Both the position numbers and the translations under genes were made by a program. A stretch of 40,135 nt of DNA from a virus. Location: positions 1 to 40,135 of the IMG/VR virus record IMGVR_UViG_3300031825_000037; one strand, 5' to 3'. The notes under the pieces were generated by a model. The model was not told where the DNA came from. It saw only the letters and a list, made by a program, of their open reading frames with translations, and made no database searches. Of this stretch, positions 13,146-35,037 are shown one piece after another (the first letter of the stretch is position 1; every line of letters begins with the position of its first letter).

Positions 13146-13574
13146 TCAAAAATCGGCTATGCGCTCGCCCAGCGTGTAGGAATAGGAATCCATCGCGTCG
13201 AGCTGGATGCGCAGACGTACCTGCTCGATGGTGGGCAGCGAGTCGAACAGCTTGCTGTCGAAGAACTTGCGCAGCTTCTCCAGCTTGTCGTCCAGCTGGG
13301 CTTTCTCGGCGACGACGCGCTGCTGGTGTGGCGGAAGGCGGCCGACATCGCCAATCGGTAAGTAGGAGCCCTCGAACACGCCCTTGGGCGACCAGCTGAT
13401 GTAACCGGTATGACGCGGATCGTTCGCTGGGCCGCCGTCGACGTACTCAACCAGATAGCCCTCGTCGGCGCCGTTCTCGTTCGCCGGCAGCTGCCAGCTG
13501 CGGTAGTCGTTGTAAGACTGCCTGGTCATGGGCGTGCCGATCACCTGCTTGGTGCCGATGTAATGCTGAGTCAT
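13146..13574 (-). CDS. Two-part phage accessory protein with crAss001_48-like C-terminus (142 aa)
   Basis: ATG 13574 follows GGAGG by 5 nt, so I prefer it to the in-frame TTG at 13586. The N-terminal ~80 residues (TQHYIGTKQVIGTPMTRQSY, GYLVEYVDGG, GYISWSPKGVFEGSYLP) form a small domain widely seen in phage accessory proteins. The C-terminal ~60 residues (PHQQRVVAEKAQLDDKLEKL, then EQVRLRIQLDAMDSYSYTLG, ERIADF) look like the helical crAss001_48-related family. The role of either part is unknown to me. It is the first gene after the late leader, so it should be made late, just ahead of the holin. Confidence 0.7.
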   Translation of the reverse strand: MTQHYIGTKQVIGTPMTRQSYNDYRSWQLPANENGADEGYLVEYVDGGPANDPRHTGYISWSPKGVFEGSYLPIGDVGRLPPHQQRVVAEKAQLDDKLEKLRKFFDSKLFDSLPTIEQVRLRIQLDAMDSYSYTLGERIADF

Positions 13575-13591
13575 GTCATCCTCCAAGAACG

Positions 13592-13614
13592 AAAAAGCCC
13601 CGCAATCGCGAGGC
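13592..13614 (-). terminator. Intrinsic terminator in the late leader (1 of 3)
   Basis: On the minus strand GCC-CGC pairs with GCG-GGC (one mismatch, 4-nt loop) and is followed by five U residues. It lies just upstream of the 142-aa gene and must be passed for late expression. Confidence 0.65.
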
Positions 13615-13615
13615 C

Positions 13616-13792
13616 TCAGAATCTTGTGCGGTCTTTCCCGCCGTCCGCCAAAGGCATCCCCAGCGCCAACGCCTTAATGCATCGGTCTCGCCAATTCAGC
13701 CACGCGCCCGGCCCGGACTTCTCCGAGGAAGCGGCCTGCGCGAGCTGCCGGTGTTTTTCATAACCGCCCCACCGCCGGCTGGGGGCGTCCAG
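13616..13792 (-). pseudogene. Coding-like frame without a normal start (about 58 aa)
   Basis: The minus-strand frame ending at 13616 reads LDAPSRRWGGYEKHRQLAQA, then ASSEKSGPGAWLNWRDRCIK and ALALGMPLADGGKDRTRF. Codon third positions are mostly G or C, as in neighbouring real genes. The frame is open back to a TAG near 13870 but contains no ATG, GTG or TTG before the conserved-looking part; only CTG (for example 13790-13792) is available. It is either a decayed gene remnant or a protein with a non-standard start. A terminator (13848-13871) lies over its upstream extension. No family is recognised. Confidence 0.4.
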
Positions 13793-13847
13793 AATATTCC
13801 CCAGAAGGGACCGCCCTGGCCGCGGATCGCAGCTATCCCCACAAACG

Positions 13848-13871
13848 AAAAAGCCCAGCGTTCGGCTGGGC
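13848..13871 (-). terminator. Intrinsic terminator in the late leader (2 of 3)
   Basis: On the minus strand a perfect 7-bp stem GCCCAGC/GCTGGGC with a 5-nt loop is followed by five U residues. It is the strongest of the three leader terminators. Confidence 0.8.
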
Positions 13872-13949
13872 TATAAAAGGAAAAAATCCCGGCCAGGCGG
13901 GGTCGCATCTGGCCAGGCAGGGCTTTCAGCTCGGGATCCATACGAAACA

Positions 13950-13962
13950 GCCGAAAGCGGCA
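13950..13962 (-). promoter_or_regulatory. Late-leader motif copy 2 (GCCGAAAGCGGCA)
   Basis: The second copy of GCCGAAAGYGGCA; the first is inside 14105-14120. Each can fold as GCC/GGC around GAAAG. The pair marks the late leader and may bind a late regulator. Confidence 0.35.
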
Positions 13963-14004
13963 TGATGCTACATTGCCACTACAGACTAAGGCTAGCCAAT
14001 GCTC

Positions 14005-14038
14005 GCGCCACGATTCGAAATAGGAAAAAACGTGGCGC
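14005..14038. repeat. GCGCCACG...CGTGGCGC palindromic element, copy 1
   Basis: Perfect 8-bp inverted repeat (14005-14012 with 14031-14038) around an 18-nt, A-rich spacer ending in a run of A next to the right arm. Two further copies lie at 31731-31765 and 32589-32620. This copy is in the noncoding late leader, between two terminators. Confidence 0.75.
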
Positions 14039-14042
14039 AAAC

Positions 14043-14069
14043 AAAAAAGCCCAGCTCAATGGCCAGGCT
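14043..14069 (-). terminator. Intrinsic terminator in the late leader (3 of 3)
   Basis: On the minus strand AGCC...GGCT pairs with internal mismatches and is followed by six U residues. It is the first terminator met after the YfbU-family gene. Confidence 0.55.
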
Positions 14070-14102
14070 TTGTTTGGGGCGCTACTTCACAGCGTGGGAA
14101 GA

Positions 14103-14131
14103 GAGTGCCGAAAGTGGCACAGGAATGTCAA
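14103..14131 (-). promoter_or_regulatory. Candidate late promoter with palindrome in the spacer
   Basis: The minus strand has a perfect -35 hexamer TTGACA (14126-14131) but no TATAAT at 16-18 nt. Instead, a perfect GTGCC-N6-GGCAC palindrome (14105-14120) fills the spacer. Such a layout fits an activator-dependent promoter. It lies ahead of three terminators and the late operon. This is inference only. Confidence 0.35.
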
Positions 14132-14140
14132 GCGGGGCCT

Positions 14141-14704
14141 TTAACGGTTTAGGGGATGAGCCCTCTCATTGAGCAGTTTCGCAAGCTCCTCAATTGTCAG
14201 GGAGCGTGCGTATTTATCGCTTGGCAGATCTTCATAGACCGCTAACATCCGCTCATACCCAGGGGCAGACCCCATATGAGAATTAAGATCCCGACCGCCA
14301 AAACAGCTCCAACGATCAAGGTCGTCGATCAAAATCTTAGCAATGCCTAAAAGGCTATATTCTCGATTTCCATCGAAACCAGGGAACTTGACATTACGTC
14401 CGAATACCCCAGCTAGACTTTCTAGCTCATCCTTTTCCTCTTTAGAGAGTCCTTGATAATCCATCTCAATCTTTTCCCACATCCCCAAGACGTCACAAAC
14501 AAAAGAAACCTCTCTTGGAGTGCCATCCTCCTCGGTGCCGCTGCCTTCAAATATCCCAGGGTAGGCCCACTCCAAAGCCCAGCCCTGACCTTCATTGACC
14601 ATGCGCTGCACAAATTCAGGATTAACCGATTCTTTTATCTTCAGCGCCTGATGGATATCAGTAAGCAGAGTGACAATTAACTTTTGCTCTTTGGAGAAGT
14701 GCAT
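14141..14704 (-). CDS. YfbU-family protein (187 aa)
   Basis: ATG 14704 has a GGGAG ribosome site 7 nt upstream. The C-terminal half (VKFPGFDGNREYSLLGIAKI, then DLDRWSCFGGRDLNSHMGSA, PGYERMLAVYEDLP) follows E. coli YfbU closely ('vtFlGFD...E..yl.Yv.fmv...gryt.F..g.h.fNsh.pmw.kYqRML'). The N-terminus (FSKEQKLIVTLLTDIHQALK) also matches the YfbU start. YfbU's biochemical role is not well established. The gene is more AT-rich than its neighbours and separates the nin block from the late leader, so it is probably a moron; it may be a defence or toxicity factor. It has room for its own promoter in the 71 nt upstream. Confidence 0.75.
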   Translation of the reverse strand: MHFSKEQKLIVTLLTDIHQALKIKESVNPEFVQRMVNEGQGWALEWAYPGIFEGSGTEEDGTPREVSFVCDVLGMWEKIEMDYQGLSKEEKDELESLAGVFGRNVKFPGFDGNREYSLLGIAKILIDDLDRWSCFGGRDLNSHMGSAPGYERMLAVYEDLPSDKYARSLTIEELAKLLNERAHPLNR

Positions 14705-14775
14705 ATTTGCTCCCTTGCTAATAATGGCAATGCATACAGGCCTTTTGATGGTATACAAGCCAATCATCGCCCAGA

Positions 14776-15393
14776 TCAAGCGGCAAGTGCTTTTTCCCCC
14801 TCAAGAACTCCCGCTACAGTCCATAGCGCCTTGGCATCCAACCTGTCACACGCCCTAAACATCTCCTGCACCACCCACCCCCACTCCCTAGACCAGTTGC
14901 GCCGATCCAGCTGGACGCCATGCCAACCGGCCAGCCAGGCGCGGAACTCCCTCGGGCTGGGTAGCGGATCAGGGTTGGCACCCATCCCTCCCTGCACCAT
15001 TACCCGGTACCGGTAGAGCACGCCGCGGGCAACGAAGCCGAGGACCGCTCTCTTCACTGTTGCAAACTGCTGGCCACGCTCTCGTAGGTACGCATTGAAC
15101 TGGCTCTCCAACAGATCTACCGCAGCCTCCTCCCAGGCATTCGATGTGCGCGAGTCGATTACCGGCGCATACAGGTGATGCCCCCAGAGCTGCAGAGCAA
15201 CCGGCAGCAAGGAGATCGCGTGCTGAACCTTCCCGGCCAAGGCCTGGTGGGCGATGCGCCCCAAGCCATTCCCTCGTGAACTGGTCTGCACCCACTGCCC
15301 GAGTTTTGCTAGCTCAATGCTATGACTCGTGACCGAATCCCATGGTGTGTAGAAAGCGTCGTGCCATGCCAGTCGAGCGCTGATCAGTCGCAT
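14776..15393 (-). CDS. Protein in the position of late antiterminator Q (205 aa)
   Basis: I do not recognise the family. It starts at ATG 15393 after GAGGGG. Visible features are ISARLAWHDAFYTPWDSVTS near the N-terminus, a long helical centre (WEEAAVDLLESQFNAYLRER), a basic segment (KRAVLGFVARGVLYRYRVMV) and Trp-rich FRAWLAGWHGVQLDRRNWSR, WGWVVQEMFRACDRLD. It is the last gene of the delayed-early rightward unit, after ruvC and just before the late leader with its terminators, exactly where lambda has Q. A late-transcription regulator is therefore inferred from position only. Confidence 0.55.
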   Translation of the reverse strand: MRLISARLAWHDAFYTPWDSVTSHSIELAKLGQWVQTSSRGNGLGRIAHQALAGKVQHAISLLPVALQLWGHHLYAPVIDSRTSNAWEEAAVDLLESQFNAYLRERGQQFATVKRAVLGFVARGVLYRYRVMVQGGMGANPDPLPSPREFRAWLAGWHGVQLDRRNWSREWGWVVQEMFRACDRLDAKALWTVAGVLEGEKALAA

Positions 15394-20773: not shown

Positions 20774-21013
20774 TCAGGCTGCGTTTTTCTTGGGCGCGGA
20801 CTCAGCCAGGAGCCAGGCTGGGTCGAACGGCTCTCCACGCATGGCAGCAGCATTGGCGAGGCGAGTGGCGTAGTCGGTTTCACCGGTGTACTCGGTACGC
20901 GGCAAGGAGCCTTTGGCAATCCACTTATCAACCGCCTGGCGCTTCACGCCGCAAACCTTGGCAGAAGCCACTGGACCTCCTGCAGCATCAACCGCAAGAG
21001 AGATTGCGCTCAT
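20774..21013 (-). CDS. cro: Cro-like repressor, YdaS/Cro HTH family (79 aa)
   Basis: Starts at ATG 21013, 7 nt after AAGGAG. Residues ~5-35 (SLAVDAAGGPVASAKVCGVK, then RQAVDKWIAKGSLP) form the helix-turn-helix of Cro/YdaS proteins, in which 'l..Ai...Ggq..lA..lGvs..aV..W...g.vP' is the rule. The rest (ATRLANAAAMRGEPFDPAWL) is a typical tail. It is divergent from the cI gene across three operators and is the first gene of pR. It should compete with CI at OR and OL. Confidence 0.88.
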   Translation of the reverse strand: MSAISLAVDAAGGPVASAKVCGVKRQAVDKWIAKGSLPRTEYTGETDYATRLANAAAMRGEPFDPAWLLAESAPKKNAA

Positions 21014-21027
21014 GTCGAACTCCTTTT

Positions 21028-21044
21028 ATCAACTTTCGGTTGAT
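21028..21044. promoter_or_regulatory. Operator OR site a (nearest cro)
   Basis: ATCAAC-TTTCG-GTTGAT is a perfect 6-5-6 palindrome centred at 21,036. It overlaps the pR -10 end and the cro leader. The same consensus recurs at 21052, 21085, 26358 and 26383. Confidence 0.85.
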
Positions 21045-21071
21045 ATTAAAGATCAACTGACTGTTACGCAA
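21043..21071 (-). promoter_or_regulatory. pR promoter for cro
   Basis: On the minus strand TTGCGT (21066-21071) and TAATAT (21043-21048) are separated by 17 nt. The predicted start leaves a leader of about 25 nt that includes AAGGAG before the cro ATG. Operators lie over the -10 and the spacer, so CI or Cro binding would block it. Confidence 0.7.
21052..21068. promoter_or_regulatory. Operator OR site b
   Basis: ATCAAC-TGACT-GTTACG has a perfect left half and a degenerate right half. It lies in the pR spacer, 24 bp from site a. Confidence 0.75.
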
Positions 21072-21084
21072 GGCGCATGCAATG

Positions 21085-21101
21085 ATCAACCAATGGTTGC
21101 C
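21085..21101. promoter_or_regulatory. Operator OR site c over the cI start
   Basis: ATCAAC-CAATG-GTTGCC covers the cI start codon (ATG at 21093), 33 bp from site b. Binding here could give negative autoregulation of cI, as OR3 does in lambda. Confidence 0.75.
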
Positions 21102-21818
21102 AAAGAAAATTTACGTCAAGCCTTCTCCTTGAGGCTCCATAACGCTTGCGATAAGGCGGGAATCCGCGTGCGCGGGCGAGCTGTTGATATTCAGGCTGAG
21201 CTAAAGCGGCGCGGCGTTCATGCCACGACTACTGCGATAGGAAAGTGGCTGAACGCTGAGGCTATCCCGGAAGCAGATAAGCTTCGCGCCTTGGCAAGAT
21301 GGCTTGGGATTAGGGCTGAATGGCTGGAATATGGCGAAGGAGAAATGATTCAGCCAGAGAAGGCTGGGGATCTTGCCTCTGAGCCGAGCAACGTATTACC
21401 AGCCATTCAGCCCACTCGCCTCTATCGCTATCCCGTTGTCAGCGAAGTTCAGGCTGGAGCATGGACCGAAGCTGTCCAGCCATATGAGCCCGGCGCCGAA
21501 GATCATTTCGAGCTGACCGACTACAAGGCAAAGGGGCCGGCCTTCTGGCTCGAGGTCTCTGGCGACTCAATGACTTCCCCGACCCGACCAAGCATCCCTG
21601 AGGGGCATTTCATCCTGGTGGATACCGGCTTAGCTCCACAGCCTGGCGACCTAGTGGTGGCCAAGCTGGACACCGAAGAGAAAGCCACCTTCAAGAAGCT
21701 GGTCAGCGATGCTGGCCAGCTCTACCTAAAACCGCTGAACCCTGCCTACCGGATGATCCCTATCGACGGAAACTGCCGCCTGATCGGGGTTGTGAAGGAA
21801 GCGAAGATGAAGCTGTAG
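21093..21818 (+). CDS. cI: CI-type prophage repressor with S24 peptidase domain (241 aa)
   Basis: I use ATG 21093; upstream in-frame ATGs lie in the operators and lack support. The N-terminal ~75 residues (RLHNACDKAGIRVRGRAVDI, then TAIGKWLNAEAIPEADKLRA, LARWLGI) form an HTH of the XRE type. The C-terminal S24 domain has the self-cleavage Ala-Gly (A121-G122, EVQAGAW), the Ser in SGDSM (S159) and the Lys in ATFKKL (K201). RecA-stimulated cleavage would induce the prophage. A weak promoter for it (TTGATA at 21040-21045, TGTTAC at 21062-21067) overlaps the operators. It opens a plus-strand unit of lysogenic genes. Confidence 0.92.
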   Translation: MVAKENLRQAFSLRLHNACDKAGIRVRGRAVDIQAELKRRGVHATTTAIGKWLNAEAIPEADKLRALARWLGIRAEWLEYGEGEMIQPEKAGDLASEPSNVLPAIQPTRLYRYPVVSEVQAGAWTEAVQPYEPGAEDHFELTDYKAKGPAFWLEVSGDSMTSPTRPSIPEGHFILVDTGLAPQPGDLVVAKLDTEEKATFKKLVSDAGQLYLKPLNPAYRMIPIDGNCRLIGVVKEAKMKL

Positions 21819-22134: not shown

Positions 22135-22232
22135 CTGTTCCGGCGATTACCGGATCAACGAATCATGCAGTCGGGTGCGCTCAGGCGCAGCGCTTGCCCA
22201 GGAATAATCGCGCCATTTTCAGAGGGATCAAT

Positions 22233-22367
22233 ATGAAGAAGTTTGCCGCACTCCTGATCAGCACCGTTCTCGCCGCCAGCTCCACAGCCGTATTCGCTCA
22301 CGGCGGCAGAACCGATGCACAAGGCTGTCACATTGACCACCGCACCGGAATCAAACACTGTCATTGA
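22233..22367 (+). CDS. Tiny exported His/Cys-motif protein (44 aa)
   Basis: This short frame (ATG 22233, TGA 22365-22367) has AGAGGG upstream. It encodes a clear signal peptide (KKFAALLISTVLAASSTAVF, then AHGG) and only about 22 mature residues, HGGRTDAQGCH then DHRTGIKHCH. The HGGRTDxxGCHxDxxTGxxHCH motif is often attached to secreted nucleases, and here it stands alone just before a secreted nuclease gene. It may be a metal-binding accessory. The motif knowledge is general; the role is inference. Confidence 0.65.
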   Translation: MKKFAALLISTVLAASSTAVFAHGGRTDAQGCHIDHRTGIKHCH

Positions 22368-22425: not shown

Positions 22426-23355
22426 ATGCGCCCGCTGTACGCATTTCCTCTGCTGCTCGCTTTCCTCTCCCCGTTCTCGTCGGCCTTCCAGGCCACCGAG
22501 GCGCCCCGCACGTTTGCCGAAGCCAAGAAGATCGCCTGGAAGATCTATGCCGAGCGGCCGGTCGACTTCTACTGCGGCTGCAAGTACCAGGGCAACCGAA
22601 TCGACCTCGCTAGCTGCGGCTACGTGCCCCGCAAGAACGCCAACCGGGCCGAGCGCGTCGAGTGGGAGCACATCGTCCCCGCCTGGGTGATCGGTCACCA
22701 GCGCCAGTGCTGGCAGAACGGCGGCCGCAAGAACTGCACGGCCAACGACCCGGTGTTCTCCGCTGCCGAGGCCGATCTGCATAACCTGGTACCGGCGGTC
22801 GGTGAAGTGAACGGCGACCGGAACAACTTCGCCTACGGCATGCTGGCCGAAAAGCCCACCCAGTACGGCGCCTGCCCCATGGTGGTCGACTTCAAGGCGA
22901 AGACGGCGATGCCGCCGGAAAACGTCCGCGGTGCAGCGGCCAGGGTCACGCTCTACATGGCCGACCGCTACAAGCTGCGCCTCTCCAGCCAGGATCGCCG
23001 GACCTACGAGGCATGGAATCGGCAGTACCCGGTCAGCGAATGGGAGCGGTGGCGCAACCAGGCTGTTGGCTGCGTCATGGGGTGGGGGAACCCCTATGTA
23101 GGGAGCGTCGACCTATCCAGCTGCTCAGGCAAGCAAAGCCATGTAGCCCTTCCGGCGCCTACCGAAGCCCCTTCTCTAATCAGAACAAGTTACTCAGCGA
23201 CGCAGGCCGAACCCGACAGCTTCAGCTGCTCTGCACGGAAAGCGTGCGGGCAGATGACGAACTGCGCCGAGGCCAGATTTCAGCTGGAGCAGTGTGGGAA
23301 TCGGAAGCTAGATCGGGATGGGGATGGGGTGCCGTGTGAGAGCTTATGCCGATAG
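22426..23355 (+). CDS. endA: EndA-type secreted endonuclease I with Excalibur domain (309 aa)
   Basis: ATG 22426 follows AAGGAAG. Residues 1-20 are a signal peptide. The endonuclease I motif RVEWEHIVPAW (H82 likely catalytic), the DLHNLVPAVGEVNGDRNNFA segment (117-136) and six-plus Cys match E. coli EndA and Vibrio Dns, which cut DNA in the periplasm or outside. After residue ~260 a separate Cys-rich domain (SCSARKACGQMTNCAEARFQ, then DRDGDGVPCESLC) is an Excalibur calcium-binding domain. The fusion would keep the nuclease active in, or attached to, the envelope. It is expressed with cI in the lysogen, so it could degrade incoming phage DNA. Confidence 0.88.
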   Translation: MRPLYAFPLLLAFLSPFSSAFQATEAPRTFAEAKKIAWKIYAERPVDFYCGCKYQGNRIDLASCGYVPRKNANRAERVEWEHIVPAWVIGHQRQCWQNGGRKNCTANDPVFSAAEADLHNLVPAVGEVNGDRNNFAYGMLAEKPTQYGACPMVVDFKAKTAMPPENVRGAAARVTLYMADRYKLRLSSQDRRTYEAWNRQYPVSEWERWRNQAVGCVMGWGNPYVGSVDLSSCSGKQSHVALPAPTEAPSLIRTSYSATQAEPDSFSCSARKACGQMTNCAEARFQLEQCGNRKLDRDGDGVPCESLCR

Positions 23356-23428: not shown

Positions 23429-25516
23429 GTGAGTCAGCGCCCTGCTGATATGAAATGCGAAGAAAGTTTAGTGAAAATGAAGTCTAAAGGGAGATTTGCT
23501 TTGTCTGAGAATTTTGTACCAAGAAACTTTTCTGGCTCAAACAAAATCACCCACAGTGGAATTTTAAAACATTTCACTATCGTAGAACCACATCAAGCAC
23601 TTGCTGAGCTGGTATGGAATGGCTTCGATGCCGGCGCCTCTGATATCTCTATATCCATCAACACAAATGATGCTCACGGAACCGACCTAGTCACCATACT
23701 GGACAACGGCAAGGGTATCAATTTTCTAGTACCAGAGGAAAACTTTCGCCGATTCAATGACTCTTTGAAGAAAGACTCTTATGACACCCATGGTTCACAT
23801 GGGCGTGGGCGACTAGCATTCCATAAGATCTGTAATACCGCCACTTGGTACACTAAGTTCGAAGGGGATAACGCCAGAATTCGAATACTTAGCAGTAACC
23901 TAAGTGATATCGATGGCACGACGATATCTATAGGCGACCAGCATCCATTGCTTAAGGATCTAGATTCTGGTACGTGCGTTGTGCTTTCTGATTTCGGAAG
24001 AAATCTTCCAGTTGAAGATTCGCTAATTTCTGAATTCAGGAAGATTTTTTGTGGCCACCTTGCTTTGATGCCACAAAAGACACTATCCCTAAACGGGCAT
24101 CTTGTCACACCACAAGAACATGAATCACATAAAATTGAGATAACTTCAAAACAGGATCGCTTTGAAGTTACCCTGCTCCACTGGAAAGACAAGCCTGGTA
24201 CTGAGAAGTCCCTCATCAACCTTATAAACAGCAAGAACAAAACACTCTATAAATTTCATAGTAGCCTAAACAGGAAAAGAGGGTACTACACATCAATTTA
24301 TGTTAAGTCTAACGTACTTGACCGATTCAGCGATGGTCCAGACAATCTTTGCGAACCAATAAGTTCGTTTCTTGCATCAGATCAGTTCCGAATTCTTGAT
24401 AAAGAAATCAACGCGTTCGCAAAGAGGATGTACGCCGAATTCCTTATCAAGCAGGCAGATAAACATGTTAGCCAATTCGAGGCCGACGGAGACTTTCCAG
24501 ACTATACAAAACTTGACCCACAAGAGTCGAAATGGCGGCTTTCGCATGTTAAGGATATCGTAAAAGCTGTTCTCGTTAGGGAACCCAGCCTTTTGGTTGG
24601 AAATAATAAGAAACAACGAAGACTAATCATAAGATTATTAGACAGGCTTTCTGTTTCAAACGAGAATAGCGGCATATTTGAAATTCTAGAAAGCATTCTT
24701 AACTTGGATGCAGCCGCTATGAAACAGCTAGCCAGCCAGTTAAAAAAAACGAAGCTTGACAACATAATAAACACTATAGAGGTCTTGCAAAACCGAGAGC
24801 TTGCAGTTGCACAAATCAAAGAAATCATGAACGTGCACTATGCCGACGTGCGTGAGACTCCAGATCTTCAAGGAGTAATCGAAAAGAACACTTGGTTGTT
24901 TGGGGCATCTTATGAAATCTTAGGAGCTGAGGAAGATAGCTTCACGGAGATAACCAGAAATCTGCGCTCCACTATTAGAGAAATTGAAGGAATTGATGTT
25001 GGCGATCTTGCTGACGGAGTAAAGATTGAGGGTGCCCAAAAGCAGGTAGACTTGTTATTAGTTCGCAGGCAGCCGCAGATAGATACGCATGGAAGAAAAT
25101 ATTTTCGATGCGTAATTGTTGAAATAAAACGACCTGGCATTGCATTGAATGACAAACACCTGCAGCAATTGGATCAATATGCTTCCATACTCAGCAGATA
25201 CCCTTCGTTCAATAGCGACCTCACGAGATTCGAGCTACTTTTAGTAGGAAGAAGCATCTCAAACGAAGCTTTTGGAATTCATCAACGGCTGGATACATCA
25301 AAGGTTCACGGGGAGCCCGGCCTAGTCACTCATACCGAGAAGATAAAAACCTACATAAAAACATGGCCGAGAATCTTCGATGAGTTTGAGTTGACTAATG
25401 ACTACTTATTGGAAAAACTGAAAAGTCAAAGAGCGGACCTTTCAGCAGCAACCAAAGATGAGTTATTAGCAGATCTTACAGCCAGCCATTCTATCGTTGA
25501 AGCCGCGCAAGTATGA
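23429..25516 (+). CDS. GHKL ATPase fused to DUF4263/Shedu-like nuclease, candidate defence (695 aa)
   Basis: The N-terminal ~230 residues form a GHKL (Hsp90/MutL/MORC-like) ATPase: the N-box ELVWNGFDAGA (E60, N64, D67), the G1 loop DNGKGI (D92-G94-G96) and the glycine-rich lid GSHGRG (122-127). A helical middle (~330-470) follows. The C-terminus has the PD-(D/E)xK set of Shedu/DUF4263 nucleases: E485 in GVIEKNTWLFG, D541 in KQVDLLLV, E565-x-K567 in VIVEIKRPG and Q580/Q583 in HLQQLDQYA. The gene is far more AT-rich than its neighbours and lies last in the cI transcript, the rex position. GTG 23429 or ATG 23450 may be the start. I infer nucleotide-gated DNA cleavage against competing phages. 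Confidence 0.85.
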   Translation: MSQRPADMKCEESLVKMKSKGRFALSENFVPRNFSGSNKITHSGILKHFTIVEPHQALAELVWNGFDAGASDISISINTNDAHGTDLVTILDNGKGINFLVPEENFRRFNDSLKKDSYDTHGSHGRGRLAFHKICNTATWYTKFEGDNARIRILSSNLSDIDGTTISIGDQHPLLKDLDSGTCVVLSDFGRNLPVEDSLISEFRKIFCGHLALMPQKTLSLNGHLVTPQEHESHKIEITSKQDRFEVTLLHWKDKPGTEKSLINLINSKNKTLYKFHSSLNRKRGYYTSIYVKSNVLDRFSDGPDNLCEPISSFLASDQFRILDKEINAFAKRMYAEFLIKQADKHVSQFEADGDFPDYTKLDPQESKWRLSHVKDIVKAVLVREPSLLVGNNKKQRRLIIRLLDRLSVSNENSGIFEILESILNLDAAAMKQLASQLKKTKLDNIINTIEVLQNRELAVAQIKEIMNVHYADVRETPDLQGVIEKNTWLFGASYEILGAEEDSFTEITRNLRSTIREIEGIDVGDLADGVKIEGAQKQVDLLLVRRQPQIDTHGRKYFRCVIVEIKRPGIALNDKHLQQLDQYASILSRYPSFNSDLTRFELLLVGRSISNEAFGIHQRLDTSKVHGEPGLVTHTEKIKTYIKTWPRIFDEFELTNDYLLEKLKSQRADLSAATKDELLADLTASHSIVEAAQV

Positions 25517-25648
25517 CAGTGCAGCCCCTTAGGTCGTTAGTAATCGTCTACGACCCAGACCATCGCAAATCTTCTCGTTTTCCTAACGCCAACATGACGA
25601 AGCATTCACGCCGCAGCCCCTAATCTACAAGGGTGGTGATAGTTTTTG

Positions 25649-25675
25649 GCCCCGCTCCCCCAGCGGGGCTTTTTT
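25649..25675 (+). terminator. Terminator of the lysogenic (cI) transcript
   Basis: GCCCCGCT/AGCGGGGC forms an 8-bp stem with a short C-rich loop, followed by six T. It is oriented for plus-strand transcription and lies 133 nt after the 695-aa gene. The minus-strand side has no U-tract. Confidence 0.85.
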
Positions 25676-26034: not shown

Positions 26035-26301
26035 ATGGCAAAGCAACGCGCCGCCCGTTCAAGCACCAGCCAAGCACCGGCCTCCAGCTATGACCAGTTG
26101 GCTCGCCGCATCCAGGGCGTAATCAGCACGCCCCGCGCCCAAGTTGAGCACCAGGCCGTTATTCATCGACAGGATGATGAGTCGCCGCAGGACTGGGGTC
26201 GGCTCCTTGAGGAAATCCGGGACGCCGAAGGCGTGACCATGACCGCGCGCGAGGATGGAGGCGTGCATTTGGCCTGGTATGTCGAGCCGTCTGATTGCTG
26301 A
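26035..26301 (+). CDS. DUF1654 family protein, SOS-regulated (88 aa)
   Basis: ATG 26035 follows AAGGAAG. After a polar start (KQRAARSSTSQAPASSYDQL), the segment ARRIQGVISTPRAQVEHQAV, then HRQDDESPQDWGRLLEEIRD and EGVTMTAREDGGVHLAW is the DUF1654 pattern ('Y..l..Rv..min.p.aq..r...i.r...E....W..lL.ei...egv.vt...dg.v.l.W'). The family is known mainly from Pseudomonas and its prophages, and its role is unknown. The LexA box directly upstream is the main functional clue: it should be made on SOS induction together with prophage excision. Confidence 0.85.
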   Translation: MAKQRAARSSTSQAPASSYDQLARRIQGVISTPRAQVEHQAVIHRQDDESPQDWGRLLEEIRDAEGVTMTAREDGGVHLAWYVEPSDC

Positions 26302-33204: not shown

Positions 33205-35037
33205 ATGACCTTGATGAAATCAGCCTCCATTAGCTTCCGTACTCAATACACCCTGCCGCTCAATGCGCAGGACGAGGAAATCAACGTCGACCTGTTCGCC
33301 GGAGGCGGCGGTGCCAGCACTGGCCTGGAGATGGGACTTGGCCGCCCGGTGCACATCGCCATCAATCACAACCCGGCGGCGATCAGCATGCACCAGGCGA
33401 ACCACCCGGGCGCCCTTCACTTCCAGACTGACGTCTGGCTGGTCGATCCGGTCGAGGCCGTAGCCGGCCGGCGTGTCGGCTGGTTCCATGCCTCTCCCGA
33501 CTGCACCCATCACAGCCAGGCGGCCGGCGGCCAGCCGCGCAAGAAGGAAATCCGCGACCTGTCCTGGGTGGTCATAAAGTGGGCCGGCAAGGTTCGCCCG
33601 CGGGTGATCAGTCTGGAGAACGTGAAGCAGATCCGCCAATGGGGCCCGCTGATCGCCAAACGCTGCAAGCAGACCGGCCGCGTCGTGCGCCTGGACGGAA
33701 CCGTTGCCGCCCCTGGCGAGCACGTCCCACGGCACGAGCAGTTCCTGGTTCCGGATCCTCGGTACAAGGGGCGCACCTGGCGGGGCTTCCTGGCCAGCCT
33801 TGAAGGGTTGGGCTACCAGGTGGAGCATCGAATCCTCAAGGCCTGCGACTACGGCGCGCCTACCAGCAGGGAGCGATTGTTCCTGCTGGCCCGGCGCGAC
33901 GGTGAGCCCATTGTCTGGCCGGAGCCGACCCACGCCGAGAAGCCGGCCAAGGGGAAGAAGCCCTACCGTACCGCCGCTGAGTGCATCGACTGGAGCATCC
34001 CCAGCCAAAGCATCTTCGACCGCAAGAAGCCGCTCGCCGAGGCCACCCTGCGCCGGATAGCCAAGGGCATTCAGCGCGAGGTGATCGAGCGGGCAAAGCC
34101 CTTCATCGTGCAGACGGGATATGGGGAGCGGCCCGGCCAATCGCCGAGGGTTCCGAGCCTCGACAAGCCCCTCGGGACAGTGGTCGCTGGCGGGGTCAAG
34201 CACGCACTGGTATCCCCTCACCTGGTGAAGTTCCGATTCAACGAGGGAGGCCTGCCGCTGGATCAACCGCTGCCGACCATCACCAGCGGCGGCAATTACA
34301 AGCGGCCGGCGGGCGCGGCCCATGCCATGGGCTTGGCCACCGCTTTCCTGGCACAGGCCAACGGAGGATTCAACACCACCCACTCCAAGGGTCTGGACGA
34401 GCCCATGACCACGGTGACCAACACCGGCAGCCAGCAGCAGCTAGTGACGGCCAGCCTGCTGCATCTCCGCGGAAACTGCGACTCTCGCCCGATTGGCGAG
34501 CCACTGCAGACCGTTAGCGCTGGCGGCCAGCACCACGGCCTAGTGACGGCGTTCTTGTCGCGCCAGTTTGGAGGAAGCGTAGGGCAAGGCTGCGACGAAC
34601 CTGCGCATACGGTCACGGCTGGCGGAGGTGGAAAGACGGCCTTGGTTGAGTGCAGCCTATCGCCGACGGTGGAGGAAGGCGCCCTGCGCTGTGCGGCGTT
34701 CCTGATGAAGTACCACGGCATCGGGGAGAACATCATCGGTATGGATGATCCGGTCAGCACCATCACCACAAAGGACCGCCTCGCCCTGGTTACCGTCTGG
34801 ATTGGAGGAGACCCCTATGTGATCGTCGACATCTTCCTTCGGATGCTACAGCCGCATGAGCTGTACCGGGCCCAGGGATTTCCCCCGAACTACATCATCG
34901 ACTGCGGGCATGACGGGCGCCGGTTCACGAAATCGGAGCAGGTCCACATGTGCGGGAACAGCGTCAGTCCGCCGCCGATGGCCGCGATCGCGCGGGCGAA
35001 TGATCCGTGGAGGGAGCGTCAGGCCATTGCGGCCTGA
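33205..35037 (+). CDS. C5-cytosine DNA methyltransferase (610 aa)
   Basis: Motif I is VDLFAGGGGASTG (F31); motif IV is ASPDCTHHSQ with the catalytic Cys100, carrying SPDC in place of the usual PPCQ; motif VI is SLENV (E138); motif VIII is APTSRERLF. At least five repeats of 'D/E-x-P-x-x-T-V/I-T-x-x-G' (for example LPTITSGG, MTTVTNTG, LQTVSAGG, AHTVTAGG) span residues ~310-530, in the target-recognition region. The C-terminus has the motif X NSVSPPPM. It would protect phage DNA from host restriction or mark it. F116-like Pseudomonas phages are known to carry such enzymes. Confidence 0.9.
   Translation: MTLMKSASISFRTQYTLPLNAQDEEINVDLFAGGGGASTGLEMGLGRPVHIAINHNPAAISMHQANHPGALHFQTDVWLVDPVEAVAGRRVGWFHASPDCTHHSQAAGGQPRKKEIRDLSWVVIKWAGKVRPRVISLENVKQIRQWGPLIAKRCKQTGRVVRLDGTVAAPGEHVPRHEQFLVPDPRYKGRTWRGFLASLEGLGYQVEHRILKACDYGAPTSRERLFLLARRDGEPIVWPEPTHAEKPAKGKKPYRTAAECIDWSIPSQSIFDRKKPLAEATLRRIAKGIQREVIERAKPFIVQTGYGERPGQSPRVPSLDKPLGTVVAGGVKHALVSPHLVKFRFNEGGLPLDQPLPTITSGGNYKRPAGAAHAMGLATAFLAQANGGFNTTHSKGLDEPMTTVTNTGSQQQLVTASLLHLRGNCDSRPIGEPLQTVSAGGQHHGLVTAFLSRQFGGSVGQGCDEPAHTVTAGGGGKTALVECSLSPTVEEGALRCAAFLMKYHGIGENIIGMDDPVSTITTKDRLALVTVWIGGDPYVIVDIFLRMLQPHELYRAQGFPPNYIIDCGHDGRRFTKSEQVHMCGNSVSPPPMAAIARANDPWRERQAIAA

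Follow-up and report, generated by a model that had tools for sequence, protein, structure and literature searches.

The combination of a GHKL ATPase, an S5 domain and a C-terminal restriction-endonuclease-fold domain with an E-D-ExK signature in one protein was described by Iyer, Abhiman and Aravind in 2008 as paraMORC3 (PMC2292703). Members occur in proteobacteria and Bacteroidetes and are sporadic and mobile; some stand alone, and for some of these a role outside restriction-modification (R-M) was proposed (PMC2292703). A report of 2025 presented VcSduA, encoded on VSP-II in V. cholerae of the WASA lineage, as a single-gene Shedu anti-phage system with an N-terminal GHKL ATPase (PMC12137116). 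The substitutions E27A (ATPase) and K557A (nuclease) each abolish its protection against phages. Protection is robust at all MOIs and the culture survives, and the mode of action reported is direct restriction, not abortive infection (PMC12137116). Both paraMORC3 and Shedu type I-D are named by its authors as connections of VcSduA (PMC12137116). The original prediction for the locus studied here had regarded a GHKL ATPase fused to a Shedu-like nuclease as a combination that could not be named, and had counted an already named defence family of exactly this architecture as evidence to the contrary. These two reports provide it, and the idea of an unnamed architecture is rejected.

The window analysed here is the complete 40,135-base stretch of a virus record from IMG/VR whose nearest named phages infect Pseudomonas. 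The predicted plus-strand open reading frame at 23429-25516 exists and comprises 695 codons from a GTG start. The gene itself probably begins 24 codons further in, at TTG 23501, and would encode 671 residues (23501..25516, plus strand), because homologues from Pseudomonas prophages (L002 and L004, 63-65% identical to the window protein) and chromosomes (L137 and L138) start at the column of codon 25 and a GGAG lies 7 nt upstream, at 23490-23493. Residue numbers below refer to this 671-residue protein; adding 24 gives the numbering used originally. The foreign, AT-rich composition first noted for the gene is borne out (GC 42%, compared with 61% elsewhere in the window). A majority of its close relatives show the same AT-richness in surroundings of higher GC.

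The GHKL ATPase domain occupies approximately residues 29-190 (23585..24070, plus strand) and contains E36, N40, D43, D68xGxG72 and H97GxxGxGR104, which include every ATPase motif initially proposed (E60, N64, D67, D92-x-G-x-G and HGxxGRGR in the earlier numbering). Residues 29-127 match HATPase_c_3 (E 5e-16), the family profile matches structures of MutL, topoisomerase VI and MORC, and the GHKL part is nearest to MutL by sequence. Foldseek searches with an AlphaFold2 (AF2) model of the window protein (mean pLDDT 85) returned MORC2/3/4, Hsp90/TRAP1, GyrB and MutL at E values of about 1e-11 to 1e-9, in line with the fold expected of this region. The structural alignments cover 320-460 columns (320-430 for MutL, MORC and Hsp90) and are longer than a lone GHKL domain, which argues for an S5-like second domain. 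In the model, this middle (transducer) domain would span approximately residues 191-293 (24071..24379, plus strand; predicted strands at 194-269, boundaries inferred), a placement behind the GHKL domain that fits paraMORC3. AF2 helices at residues 294-444 (24380..24832, plus strand) form the anticipated helical spacer between ATPase and nuclease. In BFVD, the GHKL part also has matches to many T4-type RIIA proteins; RIIA is a phage factor that counters Rex exclusion.

There is good support for assigning the C-terminal domain (approximately residues 445-640; 24833..25420, plus strand) to the PD-(D/E)xK nucleases. Residues E452, D517, E541xK543, Q556 and Y560 are invariant in 45 homologues. Three of the positions proposed from the window alone (D541, E565-x-K567 and Q580 in that numbering) are among them; the fourth, Q583, is not conserved, and the invariant acidic residue E452 (476) had been overlooked. 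With the conserved GHKL ATP-binding motifs and the model-level S5 domain, E452, D517 and E541xK543 complete the paraMORC3 set as its restriction-endonuclease-fold E-D-ExK. The best Pfam nuclease match is HSDR_N_2 (39/45 relatives, best 1e-5). Modelled alone (pLDDT 84), the domain gave weak Foldseek matches only, the better ones being mostly PD-(D/E)xK enzymes (MspJI, FokI, McrC, AspBHI and Bse634I). Searched against PDB sequences, the nuclease profile gave no match.

The suggested resemblance to DUF4263/Shedu survives only as a distant one. Comparison by hhalign with eight Shedu domains gave probabilities of 89-93%, where controls with reversed or column-shuffled profiles reached 0.06-0.51%. 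It superposed the window family and Shedu at E, N-x-W-x-FG, D, ExK and Q; the profiles point to distant homology between the nuclease domain and Shedu nucleases. Nonetheless, the window protein has no SduA_C/DUF4263 match above the curated cut-off and scores in no Shedu model. Weak SduA_C matches were found in 3/45 relatives (best 7e-4), and the PADLOC SduA model matches 8/45 (best 1.5e-4). A search of the window protein against PADLOC-DB 2.0 matched 0 families, and the Foldseek top 50 for the nuclease model, in which the only enzyme matches are weak PD-(D/E)xK ones, contains no entry named Shedu. A firm Shedu placement was obtained by none of Pfam, PADLOC or Foldseek. Nine genomes that carry relatives were searched for SduA_C, with no match. 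The SduA_C cut-off is passed by P0002 (L109), a second GHKL-nuclease protein, both domains of which are matched by the profile of our homologue alignment (4.5e-22 and 4.2e-10).

This alignment comprises the 45 homologues collected from loci, 20-64% identical to the window protein. Invariant in all rows are N40, D43, D68-x-G70-x-G72, G98-x-x-G101-x-G103-R104, W228 and R432 in the ATPase half and spacer, and E452, W465, D517, E541-x-K543, Q556, Y560 and W622 in the C-terminal part. Motif conservation on this scale is far more than chance would give. The catalytic GHKL glutamate E36 (E60 in the original prediction) is kept in 43/45 rows; two Bacteroidota members (L047 and L052) have Q in its place with the nuclease residues intact. 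The family is sparse, present in about 7/299 Pseudomonas species and 9-11/369 Gammaproteobacteria, and the tree joins the window protein to the prophage copies from Pseudomonas (98/94) and to L138 (100/100). Apparently broken copies, with an internal TGA or a split frame, were seen at L118, L119/L125 and L152 and suggest loss or cost. The window protein belongs to PHROGs family 6203, which is annotated as of unknown function.

The gene sits behind an S24 (CI/LexA-like) repressor gene (20886..21818, plus strand; Peptidase_S24 E 1e-26; PHROG 4, transcriptional repressor), the true start of which is probably inside the open reading frame. Three small genes separate the two, one of them encoding an EndA-Excalibur nuclease. 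On the plus strand, searches found no terminator from the repressor gene to the end of the ATPase-nuclease gene, and no sigma-70-like promoter between 20.6 and 24.3 kb. From the repressor as far as 26.1 kb, the sole terminator-like site is an intrinsic hairpin at 25648..25670 that would close the cargo region. Because that hairpin lies just behind the gene and no such promoter precedes it, the layout fits a transcript shared with the repressor. The predicted location behind the repressor is borne out; co-transcription is a fit to the sequence and not proven. An S24 repressor lies immediately 5' of the nuclease gene, on the same strand, in at least four further prophage sequences from Pseudomonas (L002/L003, L004, L142, L185 and L203; also L137).

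The far edge of this region is a DUF1654 gene (26035..26301, plus strand), which points in the same direction as the repressor in the window and faces it in 148 other prophage loci. This IMG/VR set was assembled from relatives of two query genes, the repressor and DUF1654, and was not de-duplicated. Among these Pseudomonas prophages the repressor-DUF1654 interval measures 47-5,775 bases, and the open reading frames of at least 90 residues on the repressor strand within it form 111 clusters; examples from the series L149-L308 are the nearly empty L216, L285 and L288 and the 5.8 kb of L168. PADLOC identified HEC-04 (5e-220), PD-Lambda-2_B (2e-49), AriA of PARIS (6e-20), AbiLi (5e-17) and GajA (3e-13) among slot representatives, and Pfam identified RelA_SpoT, HSDR_N, HipA-like and superinfection immunity proteins. 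The interval is a hypervariable cargo slot that carries known defence families together with many unnamed genes. In the window, the same cargo region includes an EndA-type endonuclease I with an Excalibur domain and an apparent signal peptide (22426-23355); its phage-record matches include Helicobacter and Campylobacter phages, and it could be a second, extracytoplasmic nuclease cargo. A small secreted YHYH-type frame lies at 22194-22367; near a Sinorhizobium relative (L011) there is likewise a YHYH protein, together with a thermonuclease gene. Elsewhere in the window, a second AT-rich stretch (13501-15000, GC 0.52-0.55) may be another cargo region.

The neighbourhood survey proposed at the outset places other relatives in defence-like surroundings as well. 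Two E. coli relatives (L309 and L310) follow the delta gene in P4-like satellites, and the L310 copy is situated between psu and an integrase gene, an anti-phage hotspot of such satellites (Rousset 2022, PMC9122126). Other relatives adjoin HsdM of a type I R-M system, a type ISP R-M gene, a helicase with an abortive-infection gene, or an N-6 methylase. With the repressor slot, these R-M and abortive-infection neighbours and the P4 hotspot agree with expectation, as qualitative evidence that carries no background rate of defence genes beside arbitrary genes. The flanks of the Citrobacter, Enterobacteriaceae and Xenorhabdus relatives yielded no P4-like structural genes. At one locus (L095, G024:C32; apparently Pseudoxanthomonas daejeonensis), a canonical Shedu gene lies less than 1 kb from a member of the window family, on the opposite strand.

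We consider it likely that the gene encodes a single-protein, ATP-gated nuclease that is expressed by the lysogen as prophage cargo and shields it from other phages. Expression together with the repressor would confine the protein to the lysogenic state. ATP binding would dimerise it through the GHKL domain, as in its relatives, and the S5 and helical middle region would enclose a cavity that clamps DNA, as in MutL, MORC and modelled VcSduA. ATP hydrolysis would then license cleavage of this DNA by the C-terminal PD-(D/E)xK domains. These clamp-and-cut steps are modelled on MutL, MORC and VcSduA and are built onto the active sites and fold described above. Since no methyltransferase partner is firmly linked to the gene, the trigger would probably lie not in a sequence but in a DNA structure that an infecting phage makes, for example ends or intermediates of replication. 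EcSduA senses DNA ends (PMC12904381), and ends are a reasonable first guess for the window protein too. The outcome would be direct restriction of phage DNA and not suicide.

An anti-phage role for the gene is probable. The defence reading draws on catalytic conservation in 45 sequences at 20-64% identity, the GHKL and S5 fold, the nuclease matches to Shedu profiles and restriction-endonuclease folds, the phage protection given by VcSduA, and the recurrent place behind the repressor and in defence hotspots. Against it stand the missing PADLOC match and the non-significant SduA_C score, as does the need for the prophage to avoid cutting its own DNA on induction. The superinfection-exclusion or abortive-infection role first proposed keeps its prophage cargo position and a probable anti-phage function; its abortive element sits poorly with the direct restriction reported for VcSduA. 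A nuclease that senses phage and destroys host nucleic acid so that the cell dies, as in WonAB or Rex, would suit the Rex-like position, and the unrelated abortive systems AriA and AbiLi occupy the same slot. We nevertheless judge abortive infection unlikely, on the strength of VcSduA only, which shares the architecture of the window protein and gives protection at every MOI, with the culture surviving (PMC12137116); no toxin-antitoxin layout was seen at the locus.

An R-M enzyme of the HgiDII/BbrUII kind offers another account of the same domains. The host DNA would then be modified by the prophage C5-cytosine methyltransferase at 33205-35037, relatives of which occur in the G467 prophage and in phage AUS531phi. 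Matches to NF050001 (BbrUII/HgiDII) were obtained for the GHKL domain of the window protein (E 1e-7) and for 21/45 members (best 1e-17), the window and the G467 prophage share related C5 methyltransferases, and several relatives in the P0002 clade adjoin DNA cytosine methyltransferase genes. The NF050001 match is, however, confined to the GHKL part and reaches 30.7 bits against a cut-off of 550, and the methyltransferase lies about 8 kb away. It was not found in the G004 genome, a close carrier whose nuclease is 64% identical, which further weakens this account; conversely, AUS531phi has the methyltransferase and tblastn found no such nuclease there. An obligatory pair with the prophage methyltransferase is unsupported on these grounds, and we regard an R-M role as quite improbable. 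Most improbable is MutL-like repair or recombination of phage or host DNA. The GHKL part is indeed nearest to MutL, and the role outside R-M proposed for some stand-alone paraMORC3 proteins would accommodate it, but the patchy distribution, the foreign composition, the cargo-slot and P4-hotspot sites and the accessory presence in otherwise similar prophages all speak against it. Also unlikely is an independent nuclease that clamps DNA, senses its topology or ends and differs from both Shedu and VcSduA. Temperate phages and P4 satellites would swap such a nuclease through the repressor-adjacent and psu-int slots, and its expression from the repressor transcript, tied to lysogeny, would serve as self-protection.

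The gene is real and probably works in defence. It would extend to temperate phages and satellites an architecture that, in the literature found, has been validated as defence in V. cholerae only, and in these elements the ATPase-nuclease would compete with other phages. The set of close prophage homologues suits study of the way in which nuclease activity is licensed by a GHKL clamp, and of how the carrier spares itself. The repressor-adjacent slot of Pseudomonas prophages is a source to mine for more defence genes, and its survey is a more useful by-product than the window gene.

Among known systems, lambda rexAB has in common with the gene its position behind the repressor and a presumed exclusion role; no sequence or domain relation was found, and the analogy is positional only. 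The HgiDII/BbrUII enzymes share the GHKL domain, a length of about 660 residues and, through the P0002 clade, a related nuclease, but they belong to R-M systems, with adjoining cytosine methyltransferases seen in that clade, and the window protein falls far below their cut-off. Canonical Shedu SduA proteins such as EcSduA share the pattern E(Q)...N-x-W-x-FG...D...ExK...Q at the hhalign probabilities given above and, unlike the window protein, have no GHKL domain. VcSduA is alike in being a single protein of similar length with N-terminal GHKL motifs I-IV, a middle clamp region and a C-terminal PD-(D/E)xK domain. Its catalytic E-to-K spacing is 530, compared with 507 in the window protein (family range 499-526), as judged from published residue positions. 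DUF4263 was assigned to VcSduA by its authors and is not significant in the window protein, and VcSduA lies on a genomic island whereas the window gene lies in a prophage. With paraMORC3 we found no architectural difference, and the window member is distinct in sitting behind a prophage repressor. The gene adds a further member to an already described architecture, and the design is widespread.
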